Positions 13,761 to 19,223 of a stretch of DNA of 23,509 nt are shown here, piece after piece (positions within the stretch are counted from its first letter, which is position 1; every line of letters begins with the position of its first letter). Under the pieces are notes generated by a model, which was not told where the DNA came from, searched no databases, and saw nothing but the letters and a program-made list of their open reading frames with translations. Location: positions 1 through 23,509 of the IMG/VR virus record IMGVR_UViG_3300034012_000620; one strand, given 5' to 3'. Made by a program: the position numbers and the translations under genes. Source of the DNA: a virus.

Positions 13761-14138
13761 ATGAGTGGCGATCACAACATGAAAGAAAGAGACCCTAAAG
13801 GCTTGGATCAACACGCTCCAGGGGCAAAACTAGACGCAGAAAAACAAAGGCCATCATTAGTGTTTGAAGATATGTTTAGGGCTTTGAATGCAGTGATAGC
13901 CGTCGGCGAATATGGGGCCAGGAAGTATTCTTATGGTGGCTGGCTGTCTGTAGAGCATGGTGAACAACGTTACACCAACGCTATGTACAGGCACATACTT
14001 GCAGAAAACGAAGATGGTTACGACAGAGATACACAATTGCTACACGCTGCACACGTTGCATGGAACGCAATGGCGAGGCTTGAATTGATGCTTCGCAGCG
14101 GAGAATGGTCACTAAGATACGGGGATGATAATGACTGA
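13761..14138 (+). CDS. dATP/dGTP diphosphohydrolase-like protein (DUF5664-type)
   Basis: AAAGGGG lies eight bases before ATG 13761. After a polar lead the protein has KLDAEKQRPSLVFEDMFRAL, VIAVGEYGARKYSYGGWLSV, RYTNAMYRHILAENEDGYDR and HAAHVAWNAMARLELMLRSG. The 'KlDagK.rp.l........A...va..G..KY...nW......Y..A..RH......ge..D.etg..hlaH...n' pattern is that of DUF5664, an all-alpha MazG-like group annotated as dATP/dGTP pyrophosphohydrolase. Candidate metal ligands are the Glu/Asp and His residues of ENEDGYDRDTQLLHAAH. Such enzymes adjust the nucleotide pool. It overlaps the next gene by eight bases. Confidence 0.68.
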   Translation: MSGDHNMKERDPKGLDQHAPGAKLDAEKQRPSLVFEDMFRALNAVIAVGEYGARKYSYGGWLSVEHGEQRYTNAMYRHILAENEDGYDRDTQLLHAAHVAWNAMARLELMLRSGEWSLRYGDDND

Positions 14139-14460
14139 CGAGCAAAAGAAGATTCTTACTTACCTGAAAAAGCGTAAGACACCTGCTGACTTAAAGTCAG
14201 TGAGGCTACAGACAAAGATCGACAAGCAAACGACTGTGAATTCCCTAAACGCTCTGCTAAAGAAAGGTTGTATAAAGACATCGTTTAGGATAGACCCGTT
14301 TACCAAGGAACGTGTTTGGGAGTGGGTAAAGGACGAATACGAGGCCAAGAAGGTATCCAGGCCAAAGAAGAAGTTCAAGCCTGTCTTATCGAAACCTAAG
14401 CAGGAAGAAGGCGTAGACATCAGTTTCTTTAATAATCCGTTCAATCTGAGGGTCGCGTGA
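14131..14460 (+). CDS. Winged-helix-like DNA-binding protein (109 aa)
   Basis: I prefer ATG 14131 because GGGG stands six bases upstream; ATG 14125 would also fit. The N-terminal 60 residues, MTDEQKKILTYLKKRKTPAD and LKSVRLQTKIDKQTTVNSLN followed by ALLKKGCIKTSF, form a typical winged helix-turn-helix. The rest is a very basic linker (KKVSRPKKKFKPVLSKPKQE) ending in a short hydrophobic piece ISFFNNPFNLRVA. A regulator of late transcription is possible given its place near the end of the early operon. The stop overlaps the methyltransferase start (GTGA). Confidence 0.6.
   Translation: MTDEQKKILTYLKKRKTPADLKSVRLQTKIDKQTTVNSLNALLKKGCIKTSFRIDPFTKERVWEWVKDEYEAKKVSRPKKKFKPVLSKPKQEEGVDISFFNNPFNLRVA
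14448..14452 (+). promoter_or_regulatory. Shine-Dalgarno serving two overlapping frames
   Basis: GAGGG stands four bases before GTG 14457 (methyltransferase) and eight before ATG 14461 (+1 frame). The spacing to the ATG is the more favourable. Both starts could load ribosomes from the same site. Confidence 0.6.
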
Positions 14461-15200
14461 ATGAGTTGGCTCTTTTCGCGGGCGCTGGTGGAGGAATACT
14501 CGGAGGACATTTGCTCGGATGGCGAACCGTCTGTGCAGTCGAATGGGAGCCCTACGCCGCAAGCGTACTTGTGCAACGACAAAATGATGGGATTCTCCCG
14601 TCTTTCCCGATTTGGGATGACGTTCAGACTTTTGACGGCAAACCGTGGCGAGGCATTGTTGATGTCGTATCTGGAGGGTTTCCCTGTCAGGACATTTCAG
14701 CAGCAGGAAAAGGCGCAGGAATTGACGGAGAACGATCAGGCATGTGGCGAGAAATGGCAAGGATCATTTGCGAAGTACGACCCCGATACGCATTCATTGA
14801 GAACTCCCCAATGCTCACTACTAGAGGACTTGACCGAGTCCTGTCAGACCTTGCCAGCATGGGGTTTGATGCGCGATGGGGAGTGTTGGGAGCAGCCGAC
14901 GTTGGAGCTCCGCATCAGAGAGACCGGATCTGGATTGTGGCCCACTCCCGTGAAATCGGACTCGGCAGCCAGAAGGCCAAGCAAGGGATGGAAAGGGGAT
15001 TCAGACCTTCCATCGGTTGTGTGGACAAGAAGTGGTGGCACAGAGAACCCGAGCAAACCTCCCGCGAGATTGAACCAGGAATGGGTAGCGTGGTTGATGG
15101 GATGGCCTCTCGGATGGACGAGCTTGCGGCCCTTGGAAATGGCCAAGTTCCAGCAGTGGCAGCAACAGCATGGAAATTGTTAACAGAGGAGATGCAATGA
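14457..15200 (+). CDS. C5-cytosine DNA methyltransferase, short form
   Basis: GTG start in a GTGA overlap. The 247-residue enzyme shows motif I LFAGAGGGILGGHLLGW (residues 6-22), motif IV GGFPCQDIS with catalytic Cys77, motif VI IENSP (Glu115), motif VIII HQRDRIWIV (153-161) and motif X GNGQVPAVAATAW (227-239). It transfers a methyl group from S-adenosylmethionine to cytosine C5, probably shielding phage DNA from host restriction. The variable target-recognition segment between VIII and X is only about 60 residues, so the protein is shorter than bacterial Dcm. The ENV of motif VI is ENS. A second long frame overlaps it almost completely. It ends in ATGA with the 62-aa gene. Confidence 0.9.
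   Translation: MNELALFAGAGGGILGGHLLGWRTVCAVEWEPYAASVLVQRQNDGILPSFPIWDDVQTFDGKPWRGIVDVVSGGFPCQDISAAGKGAGIDGERSGMWREMARIICEVRPRYAFIENSPMLTTRGLDRVLSDLASMGFDARWGVLGAADVGAPHQRDRIWIVAHSREIGLGSQKAKQGMERGFRPSIGCVDKKWWHREPEQTSREIEPGMGSVVDGMASRMDELAALGNGQVPAVAATAWKLLTEEMQ
14461..15183 (+). CDS. Candidate overlapping gene in +1 frame of the methyltransferase (240 aa)
   Basis: ATG 14461 lies four bases after the methyltransferase GTG and behind the same GAGGG. The frame stays open for 240 codons and stops 17 bases before the methyltransferase does. The product looks like a real soluble protein: MSWLFSRALVEEYSEDICSD, CGEKWQGSFAKYDPDTHSLR, LPAWGLMRDGECWE, SGLWPTPVKSD and LNQEWVAWLMGWPLGWTSLR. I recall phage and metagenome hypotheticals with the same W-G-x-M-R-x-G, W-P-T-P and N-x-x-W-V-x-W-L-M-G-W-P-x-G-W-T blocks, often beside Dcm. 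No catalytic motif is recognised; 11 Trp and a basic C-terminus suggest nucleic acid contact. A conserved but untranslated shadow remains possible. Confidence 0.5.
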   Translation: MSWLFSRALVEEYSEDICSDGEPSVQSNGSPTPQAYLCNDKMMGFSRLSRFGMTFRLLTANRGEALLMSYLEGFPVRTFQQQEKAQELTENDQACGEKWQGSFAKYDPDTHSLRTPQCSLLEDLTESCQTLPAWGLMRDGECWEQPTLELRIRETGSGLWPTPVKSDSAARRPSKGWKGDSDLPSVVWTRSGGTENPSKPPARLNQEWVAWLMGWPLGWTSLRPLEMAKFQQWQQQHGNC

Positions 15201-15437: not shown

Positions 15438-16139
15438 ATGAAAGCGGCGGTCTACACGGCGATCTTTGGCAACTATGACCCGTTGCGCTACGCGGTCAAA
15501 CAAAGCGTTCCTACGGCCTTTTACGCGATCCTGGATAGTGCTAAAGAGCCGCAGGGATGGCAGCAGGTCATTACAAGTAGACGCTTCTCAGATACGCGCA
15601 TGGATGCTAAGTGGTTCAAGGTGTTTCCAGACAAGCTGGAGTTCGCCGAGGATTATGTGATTTGGATAGACGGGTCGATAAGGATCACAAGTCAAGAGTT
15701 TGTGGCCTACATGATCGACCAAGCCGGAGATACGATGGCGGCATTCCAGCATCCCTGGAGGACTTGTATCTACCAAGAAGCTGGAGAGTGTTGGAACATG
15801 GTCAAGTATCAAGACCAACCTATCTTGGCTCAAGTCGAGCACTATAGGGATCAGGGGTGGCCGCAGGACGCAGGTCTTATTGCTGGCGGGGTTCTATGTT
15901 GGAAGCGGAGTTACATCAATCCTCAAGCAAATCAAGATTGGTGGATTGAGATGATGAAGTGGACGCTCCAGGATCAGCTGTCGTTTCCGATCATCGCAGA
16001 CAGAAACGGGTTAGAGGTCAATGTGTGTACAGAAAACCTCATGAATAACAAATACTTTCAGGTGGTAGCCCACCATAGGATGGCGGAGTATGAAAAAAGT
16101 TCCGATACTCATTTGTACGGTAGGGAGTCCAAGTCTTGA
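15438..16139 (+). CDS. DUF616-type glycosyltransferase-like protein
   Basis: A 233-residue protein starting MKAAVYTAIFGNYDPLRYAV, the typical first strand of DUF616 (TOD1/MUCI70-like) proteins. Further blocks are RRFSDTRMDAKWFKVFPDKL, YVIWIDGSIRITSQEFV with an acidic D-x-S site, AAFQHPWRTCIYQEAGECWN, and DAGLIAGGVLCWKR, then WTLQDQLSFPIIADRNG. This arrangement is a GT-A-like fold with a metal and nucleotide-sugar site around DGS. It could glycosylate phage DNA, virion protein or host envelope. No ribosome site is visible because the terminator's T-run touches the start. The next glycosyltransferase starts 50 bases before its end. Confidence 0.75.
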   Translation: MKAAVYTAIFGNYDPLRYAVKQSVPTAFYAILDSAKEPQGWQQVITSRRFSDTRMDAKWFKVFPDKLEFAEDYVIWIDGSIRITSQEFVAYMIDQAGDTMAAFQHPWRTCIYQEAGECWNMVKYQDQPILAQVEHYRDQGWPQDAGLIAGGVLCWKRSYINPQANQDWWIEMMKWTLQDQLSFPIIADRNGLEVNVCTENLMNNKYFQVVAHHRMAEYEKSSDTHLYGRESKS

Positions 16140-17509: not shown

Positions 17510-17802
17510 CTGCCGCCTGGACTCGCAAAGAGGGTAAGAACGCTAAGGGTGGCCTGAATGAAAAGGGCCGGAAGTCTTACGAGGCTGCAAACCCTGGCTC
17601 TAACTTGAAGGCTCCGGTCAAGAGCGGAGATAACCCGCGTAGAGCGAGTTTCTTAGCGAGAATGGGTAACATGCTAGGGCCAGAGCGTAAACCTGATGGT
17701 AGCCCTACTAGACTCTTACTCAGTCTAAAGGCATGGGGTGCAAGTAGTAAGGAAGATGCAAGGTCAAAAGCAAAGGCAATCTCGGCGAGGAACAAGAAGT
17801 GA
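17506..17802 (+). CDS. DUF6321-like basic protein (98 aa)
   Basis: Starts MTAAWTRKEGKNAKGGLNEK and continues GRKSYEAANPGSNLKAPVKS, then NPRRASFLARMGNMLGPERK, GSPTRLLLSLKAWGAS and a Lys/Ala-rich tail. The WTRKEGKN.KGGLNEKGR.SYE..NPGS.LKAPV pattern is that of DUF6321. Charge is strongly positive. Function is unknown; the constant company of DUF6496-like proteins in phages hints at a shared role. It is linked by ATGA upstream and GTGA downstream. Confidence 0.72.
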   Translation: MTAAWTRKEGKNAKGGLNEKGRKSYEAANPGSNLKAPVKSGDNPRRASFLARMGNMLGPERKPDGSPTRLLLSLKAWGASSKEDARSKAKAISARNKK

Positions 17803-19223
17803 AGCGCAGAAAGGGTCTGCTGGACGAAGAGAAGTTCTTGCCTCCGCTGCCGGAACAGTTGCCGCGCGGGGCTAGTTCTTTGCTTGGCTACGGTCAAGGC
17901 CAAGGTATGCAAGTATTCCAAGAGGCTGCCGACGTAGGAAGAGGTTTGTTTGGAGCGGCCCCAATTATCGAGGGCGGCGAGGGTTACAGAACCGGCCAGG
18001 CACTAGCGAACATTCCTCCGATTGCTGCCGGACTTGGTGTTATCAAGGCTCCAGGCAAAGCAGGTCAATTTATAAGTGCTGTTTCGCCAAAAGTTAATTT
18101 GCAAATGGCGGCAGAGGCTGCTGAAAAAATAGGTCAAAGCGCAAACCCATACACAAGGTCATTGCAACAAGGGTTTGAGCATGGTTGGTATCACGGCACT
18201 ACGGGTGACATAACATCGTTTAGGAAAGATTTGCTTGGAGAGTCGACTGGGGCGCAAAGTGCTAGAAAGGGATTTTTCTTCGCAAGAGATCCGCAAAACC
18301 CTCCTCAGGAAATGCTTGCAAAGTCTCCTGCTGACTCTAAGACCGTTGATATGTTGAAAAGACTTGGGATACCTGAAGAGCAAATTGCCAAGTTGAATAC
18401 CGTTTCTATGGAAGGTCATGGCGCAGAAACTGCCTCTGGTTACGCAAAAATGGGTGGCTCAAGGCAATATAAAGAGGCTATGAGAAAAGCCAGCGCCGCA
18501 GAAAAAAAACAAAATTGGGATGAGTACGAAAAACAAATGACCATTGCCGAAGATGTAGAAATATCAAGGCAGCAGGAAATGCAAGGGCTCGTTGCGAAAT
18601 ATGGTGATGCACGAGATGAAATGCTTAGTAGCATCCAAAATGCTATTTATTCAAAGCAACTCCCTCAACAAGAGGCTGAAAGGTTAGATCAAACCGTCAA
18701 GTCTTTGATGCCTTATGGTTGGTACAACAGTTATTCGCCGGAGCAATTCTCTGGTCTTAAAAAAGAGATAGTTGGTTTGGTTGGAGAAAAAGCAGCTTCT
18801 CCGGCCTTAAAAAAGATTGACGATTTTTTGTCTATCAAAAACGAAAGGGCTCTTGCGGAACATACGTCTGAAGGTGGCAATGTTATGCCTGTTGCTCTTT
18901 CATATAAAAACCCGCTTTATTATGATTTCCAGGGCAATACTTATCGAGACCAGACTTATGCTGACTTGTTAGACCAAGCTATAAGGCAAGGTAATGACGC
19001 TGTAATTCTGAAGAATACTTATGACCCAGGGGCTGGGCCAGCAAAACTAATTGACGTTGGGGTTGTTTTTAACCCTAATCAAGTTAGAAGTAAGTTTGCC
19101 GCATTTGATCCAACAAGATCAAAAGAGTCGGATTTGCTAGCAGGAATAGGTACAGTAGGAGCCGGTTTACTTAGTCCTGCTGTCTTAGAGTATCTTCGTC
19201 GCAGAGATGAAGAAGGCATGTAA
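17799..19223 (+). CDS. ADP-ribosyltransferase-like polyvalent protein
   Basis: GTG start in a GTGA overlap. Residues 1-125 are Gly/Ala/Pro-rich with weakly hydrophobic stretches (NIPPIAAGLGVIKAPGKAGQ). From residue 129 come signs of an ADP-ribosyltransferase: GWYHGTTGDITSFRKDLLGE (His132) and STGAQSARKGFFFARDP. A helical Glu/Lys-rich insertion (about 165-355) follows, then DAVILKNTYDPG, and DVGVVFNPNQVRSKFAAFDP. This split layout occurs in toxin-like ART domains of phage polyvalent proteins, which may be injected with the DNA and modify host proteins. The final residues ESDLLAGIGTVGAGLLSPAV are hydrophobic. The DNA of residues about 90-440 is more A/T-rich than both ends, as if the central domain had been replaced. 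Confidence 0.65.
   Translation: MKRRKGLLDEEKFLPPLPEQLPRGASSLLGYGQGQGMQVFQEAADVGRGLFGAAPIIEGGEGYRTGQALANIPPIAAGLGVIKAPGKAGQFISAVSPKVNLQMAAEAAEKIGQSANPYTRSLQQGFEHGWYHGTTGDITSFRKDLLGESTGAQSARKGFFFARDPQNPPQEMLAKSPADSKTVDMLKRLGIPEEQIAKLNTVSMEGHGAETASGYAKMGGSRQYKEAMRKASAAEKKQNWDEYEKQMTIAEDVEISRQQEMQGLVAKYGDARDEMLSSIQNAIYSKQLPQQEAERLDQTVKSLMPYGWYNSYSPEQFSGLKKEIVGLVGEKAASPALKKIDDFLSIKNERALAEHTSEGGNVMPVALSYKNPLYYDFQGNTYRDQTYADLLDQAIRQGNDAVILKNTYDPGAGPAKLIDVGVVFNPNQVRSKFAAFDPTRSKESDLLAGIGTVGAGLLSPAVLEYLRRRDEEGM

Follow-up and report, generated by a model that had tools for sequence, protein, structure and literature searches.

A probable phage-borne two-polypeptide C5-cytosine methyltransferase encoded in overprinted frames

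C5-cytosine methyltransferases made of two polypeptides have a precedent in M.EcoHK31I and M.EaeI, enzymes of this type that act on YGGCCR. M.EcoHK31I consists of an alpha chain of about 309 amino acids and a beta chain of about 176 amino acids, and both are needed for activity. The small chain is reportedly encoded inside the large one in a different reading frame, a finding said to go back to Lee, Kam and Shaw in 1995. The conserved motifs of such enzymes are divided in different ways: the large polypeptide of M.EcoHK31I carries motifs I-VIII and X together with the predicted recognition domain, and the small one carries motif IX, while in M.AquI the break falls in the variable region and motifs IX and X lie together in the small subunit (PMC3404938).

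Here we describe a gene from a 23.5-kb virus record that also holds portal, terminase, tail, lysozyme and recombination genes; the whole stretch analysed, 23,509 nucleotides long, is referred to as the window. The comparisons below indicate that this gene is very probably an overprinted two-polypeptide C5-cytosine methyltransferase of the M.EcoHK31I sort, borne by a phage and with both starts on one ribosome-binding site. From the same sequences we infer that beta, the product of the second frame, would be translated, that it would form with alpha an active heterodimer with a target of its own, and that the enzyme would have a protective role. The locus resembles M.EcoHK31I in its described motif layout, in that motifs I-VIII and X belong to the larger of two predicted chains and motif IX to the smaller, and this layout suggests that it would work like that enzyme. 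As is said of M.EcoHK31I, the small chain is nested here within the gene of the large one and read in a different frame. However, beta is longer here (240 amino acids) and starts 4 nt after alpha. M.EcoHK31I is also a restriction-modification enzyme, whereas here the gene belongs to a phage and no restriction endonuclease was recognised among the neighbouring genes of the window by Pfam, PHROGs or PADLOC, several small neighbours matching nothing; this makes protection of the phage DNA from host restriction the likely use. M.AquI is likewise a two-chain enzyme, but at this locus motif X stays with alpha. Given the two-chain precedent, what is new is the phage setting, the near-complete nesting with co-located starts, the wide spread, the exclusive partition of motif IX and the missed annotation. 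No account of a methyltransferase pair nested in this way in a phage turned up in our search of the open-licence literature.

Layout of the locus and division of the motifs

Alpha (14457..15200, plus strand) is a C5-cytosine DNA methyltransferase of 247 amino acids plus stop that starts on GTG. It matches PF00145 (1.4e-33) and phrog_363 (3.6e-67), and scores 86.4 against TIGR00675, below the cut-off of 100.65. All the C5-methyltransferase motifs I, IV (PCQ), VI (ENV/ENS), VIII (QxRxR) and X (GNxVxP) are present on the plus strand, namely motif I at 14466-14495, motif IV (PCQ) at 14673-14693, motif VI (ENS) at 14781-14807, motif VIII (QRDR) at 14913-14942 and motif X (LGNGQVP) at 15132-15152. 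Alignment to M.HhaI covers only residues 16-181, that is motifs I-VIII, and motif X is kept at the end of alpha. Thus alpha shares motifs I-VIII and X with the canonical monomeric enzymes of the M.HhaI and Dcm type (PF00145, TIGR00675) but is without an in-frame motif IX.

Beta (14461..15183, plus strand) is an open +1 frame of 240 amino acids nested in alpha, from ATG 14461 to a stop at 15181-15183. The first-pass annotation had described this 240-codon stop-free frame within the methyltransferase gene and a single GAGGG spaced 4 nt before the GTG and 8 nt before the ATG, and both statements proved right when re-read from the sequence. The GAGGG, at 14448..14452 on the plus strand, is the ribosome-binding site common to alpha and beta, and the GTGAATG that follows at 14457..14463 (plus strand) combines the GTG start of alpha, the TGA stop of an upstream open reading frame (14125-14460) and the ATG start of beta. 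Along its plus-strand course beta contains the conserved blocks SFAKYDPDTHSLRT (14764-14805), WGLMRDGECWE (14860-14892) and SGLWPTP (14929-14949), and a motif-IX-like block detected by profile, ARLNQEWVAWLMGWPLGW (also given as LNQEWVAWLMGWPLGW; 15064..15117, plus strand), whose DNA lies directly 5' of alpha motif X.

The location of motif IX was examined with a profile built from canonical methyltransferases, with the 99% level of shuffled sequences as threshold. No motif IX was found in the alpha frame of the window, where the best in-frame score was -2.7, whereas the +1 frame scored 4.7 against a shuffled 99th percentile of 2.6. In 36 canonical genes motif IX lies in frame, with scores of 13.7-55.3, and the +1 scores fall below zero. 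For 20 distinct genes without an in-frame motif IX, the best match was always the same +1 block, LNPxWVEWLMGWPxGW, just before alpha motif X. Fifteen of these 20 genes scored higher than the shuffled 99% level. Eleven of the 20 are the window itself or come from genomes chosen for holding beta, and of the remaining nine genes eight exceed that level. In the five genes that fall below it (L416, L417, L420, L421 and L433), the same block can be recognised by eye. The in-frame and the +1 locations of motif IX are mutually exclusive in the sampled bacterial genomes. Read along the DNA, motifs I-VIII come in frame 0, then the variable or recognition region and motif IX in the +1 frame, then motif X in frame 0 again, so that the order across both frames is collinear with that of a canonical enzyme.

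These patterns suggest that beta most likely supplies the motif IX and the target-recognition region that alpha lacks, unlike M.EcoHK31I, whose predicted recognition domain is placed in the large subunit (PMC3404938). The part of beta that lies between WPTP and LNP is highly variable, both in length and in sequence, which would be expected of a recognition region. An earlier suggestion that the variability of one frame may be bought by the other fits this arrangement, as alpha codons ~163-192, opposite the variable stretch of beta, form an unconserved linker. In the mechanism we propose, ribosomes loaded at the single Shine-Dalgarno site would have two starting points to use, the GTG and, 4 nt later, the ATG, so that one message would yield both subunits. 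Alpha, with motifs I-VIII for AdoMet binding and catalysis and motif X at its C-terminal end, would bind AdoMet and the flipped cytosine, while beta would bring motif IX and contact the target DNA. The assembled chains would then methylate the phage genome, probably against host restriction.

Several neighbouring genes in the window deserve mention. Two genes upstream, the product of 13761-14138 has a dATP/dGTP diphosphohydrolase N-terminal domain (PF18909) and may act on nucleotide pools or in base modification. Shortly 3' of the methyltransferase, 15438-16139 encodes a glycosyltransferase-like protein (PF04765, TOD1/MUCI70), and 17799-19223 encodes a protein of 474 amino acids that has no PHROG and whose sole match, to PF18760 (ART-PolyVal), is below threshold.

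Start site of beta and its pairing with alpha

Of 90 relatives, 89 retain the ATG of beta, which overlaps alpha codon 2, and a Shine-Dalgarno-like site precedes it by 5-12 nt, most commonly 8, in 71 of these 89. In 18 relatives that keep this ATG, alpha must begin a few codons further upstream, since the codon aligned to its start (TTA, CTT or similar) cannot serve as one. A variant of the two-subunit reading holds that beta starts instead at an internal ATG of its frame (Met68; 14662..14664, plus strand), the functional form being about 173 amino acids and the long 5' frame incidental. This shorter form is favored by a GAGG upstream of that ATG and by the alignments of distant relatives, including mycobacteriophage SG4 and Stenotrophomonas phages such as SOVA965, which match beta only from residue 66 or later. 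We nevertheless consider it unlikely, since a methionine at the Met68 column is found in only 42 of the 90 members of the window's clade, against 89 of 90 for the ATG at alpha codon 2, and since codons 1-66 are stop-free with reduced synonymous change. Selection on the +1 frame before Met68 implies a beta of about 240 amino acids in the window's clade, and the late start of the match in distant relatives suggests that the 5' extension seems to be peculiar to this clade.

Beta is closely tied to alpha wherever it was found. In all 80 bacterial contigs retrieved by the beta profile, beta lies in the +1 frame of alpha; a few of these alphas contain a stop and may have decayed. About 594 sampled genomes from two phyla gave 38 matches to the C-terminal part of beta. 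They represent 36 distinct loci, of which two lie in centre genomes chosen beforehand for beta, and all are in the +1 frame of an alpha, 37 of these overlaps being called by profile and that of L505 on reading. Beta without an overlapping alpha was found neither among the 80 contigs nor among the 36 distinct loci. The first-pass annotation had pictured the partner as a neighbour of Dcm, an idea that has to be revised, for in all relatives examined it sits inside the same kind of gene. In six bacterial genomes (L178, L189, L191, L192, L197 and L211) alpha carries an internal stop and beta is still open in most of them; these alphas may be decaying prophage copies or sequencing errors.

A fused form of the two proteins also exists. 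Large plasmids of Vibrio, Aliivibrio and Alteromonas encode a single "DNA cytosine methyltransferase" whose motifs I-VIII and X precede a beta-like domain in the same frame; this domain was detected in 31 plasmid records of these genera. The Vibrio plasmid fusion matched beta in hhalign with a probability of 96.3% (E 1.5e-9), and hmmsearch against this one protein, run with a model from which it had been left out, gave 5e-11. The joining of two proteins into one chain is a classical sign that they act together. The plasmid protein (WP_240306742.1 type) resembles the present pair in its alpha-like catalytic part and its beta-like C-terminal domain, but differs in having one frame, one chain and the motif order I-VIII, X, IX. 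One example, from Vibrio campbellii plasmid pIFL1_1 (L475:3207-4451), shows this naturally permuted order in a single chain, motif IX being C-terminal in the beta-like domain. A search for viral relatives of the Vibrio fusion found none.

The fusion bears on the possibility that beta, though a real protein, has a separate task, for example in anti-restriction or regulation, and is simply overprinted on a methyltransferase. The first 66 residues of beta are without a known relative, and three of the four PHROGs matched by the beta of the window at E <= 0.001 are of unknown function. An AlphaFold2 model of beta alone, made from 90 relatives, reached a pLDDT of only 49, and this poor model had no match in the PDB, so that it lends no support to a recognition-domain fold. 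All these features would suit an independent protein. We regard such a protein as decidedly improbable, however, because motif IX is missing from alpha exactly where beta has one, because beta was not found without alpha and because of the one-chain fusion on Vibrio plasmids. The collinear order of the motifs would also suit a single chain, if translation passed from alpha into beta downstream of motif VIII through a programmed ribosomal frameshift. This explanation is very unlikely to hold, as codons 1-66 are also selected in the +1 frame, which would be needless for such a product, and as the ATG of beta and its 8-nt spacing are conserved.

Selection on the two frames

Taken alone, the open frame of the window is suggestive only. 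Synonymous permutation of this one gene gave a mean of 4.2 stops in the +1 frame and a probability of 0.0075 for a longest +1 run of at least 240 codons, which is moderately unlikely. The family-wide evidence is decisive, and shows that the +1 frame is open far beyond chance. In 80 of 80 IMG/VR loci picked by the alpha protein alone no stop interrupts it from codon 1 until close to its end, and the open frame is also conserved across 99 aligned loci. A set of 90 non-redundant alphas, mutually less than 90% identical, served as the base for the stop and codon counts; these sequences are related and the counts are not independent events. One internal +1 stop was observed in this set where about 467 were expected, with none against 60 expected in codons 1-66 and one against 407 expected in the body. 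Codons for Leu, Val or Ile ending in TA were used at 0 of 2628 places where a +1 stop would form, and made up 28-29% before safe bases. Codons ending in TG were used at 1 of 458 such places, against 15-30% in safe contexts, which brings the pooled count of stop-making codons to 1 of 3086, against the same 15-30%. The same pattern of an open +1 frame extends to plasmids, bacteria and one archaeon, and canonical methyltransferases have 3-33 stops in this frame. The scattered +1 stops in homologous loci that had been named beforehand as the sign against a second coding frame are absent from all 80 loci.

Synonymous sites point in the same direction. At 85-90% protein identity, 66% of the four-fold degenerate sites of alpha are identical in codons 3-66, 69% in codons 68-165 and 87% in codons 193-236. 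Pairs of canonical methyltransferases that are 85-88% identical reach 44-60%; six genes from the sampled genomes made up this control, because canonical relatives on viral contigs were too diverse to match. At 90-93% identity the corresponding values for the 5', middle and C-terminal parts of alpha are 71, 75 and 88%, against 52% for the portal gene. The excess of synonymous constraint that the first-pass annotation had proposed looking for at methyltransferase loci is thus found over both controls. Codon choice in alpha also tracks the position and not the residue. Asn2 is AAT in 88 of 88 sequences, which makes the ATG of beta, but Asn116 is AAC in 90 of 90; similarly, Phe59 is TTT in 89 of 90 but Phe7 is TTC in 87 of 90, and Asp221 is GAC in 89 of 89 but Asp54 is GAT in 86 of 88. 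In codons 209-226, which encode EWLMGWPLGWTDLKPLE in beta, beta is more conserved than alpha, and in codons 163-212 variability is greatest at the first position of alpha, which is the third position of beta. Both frames are under selection.

That the +1 frame is an untranslated shadow of the methyltransferase, open through chance and codon bias, has a negligible probability, for although the single open frame is just moderately unlikely and conserved alpha Trp codons by themselves yield conserved +1 Gly, this reading is opposed by the family-wide loss of stops, the context-dependent avoidance of stop-making codons, the excess synonymous constraint, the superior conservation of beta in codons 209-226, the in-frame fusion elsewhere and the stops in canonical +1 frames. 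The original proposal of two proteins from one locus, an enzyme and a partner, gains support from the stop-free +1 frame, the synonymous constraint and the codon avoidance, and the pair would probably be the two subunits of one methyltransferase.

Distribution, annotation and implications of the nested gene

Both frames are widely distributed, and beta was recovered in full-length tblastn matches. They occur in phages of Pseudomonas, Salmonella, Acinetobacter, Klebsiella, Vibrio, Microcystis, Stenotrophomonas, Mycobacterium and Bacteroides, on plasmids of Leptospira, Acinetobacter, Bacteroides, Nostoc and the archaeon Methanomethylovorans, and in bacterial genomes from Pseudomonadota to Akkermansia, prophages included. 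More distant alphas that also have a +1 beta are found in three sampled Pseudomonadota genomes (L488, L490 and L493), which suggests that the split gene seems to be older than the window's clade. The alpha of L488 has an N-terminal YYNENNPAMAAWLRALI extension and its beta ends in LNPEHTRWLMGFPPGW.

None of 15 inspected records annotates both complete frames. Most of them deposit alpha, and in Pseudomonas phage phPA-G and Stenotrophomonas phage SOVA965 the deposited frame is beta. The beta frame matches phrog_1008, phrog_26627 and phrog_35493, which are labelled "DNA methyltransferase" or unknown and in no case as a nested partner; the label "DNA methyltransferase" of phrog_1008 hides a match to the nested partner and not to the catalytic chain. 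No family for beta was returned from Pfam or NCBIfam. In Mycobacterium phage Llama, genes 74 and 75 (L172:1805-2564) are both annotated as DNA methyltransferases. Alpha and beta are each broken there by a frameshift near 2170, which makes the two annotated genes pieces of one shifted dual-coding gene. Both frames are open in SG4, a relative of Llama.

We think it reasonably likely that these genes form an old and widespread mobile-element lineage of C5-methyltransferases that exists as a dual-coding gene, in which specificity would evolve in the +1 frame at the cost of just an unconstrained linker in the catalytic subunit, and that the window's clade has extended beta in the 5' direction until the two starts share one ribosome-binding site. 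If this is true, a pair sharing one site would be inseparable by recombination, and the supply of the two subunits would be tied together. Long same-strand overlaps that are conserved across phyla are rare in prokaryotes, and in this gene some 240 codons serve two frames, between which a single function is plausibly divided. Since gene finders retain one frame, the recognition subunit of many phage and prophage "DNA cytosine methyltransferases" would be absent from databases or listed as "hypothetical", and recoding the annotated frame for expression would destroy the other half of the enzyme. The gene may also provide a clean system in which to measure how overprinting constrains evolution.
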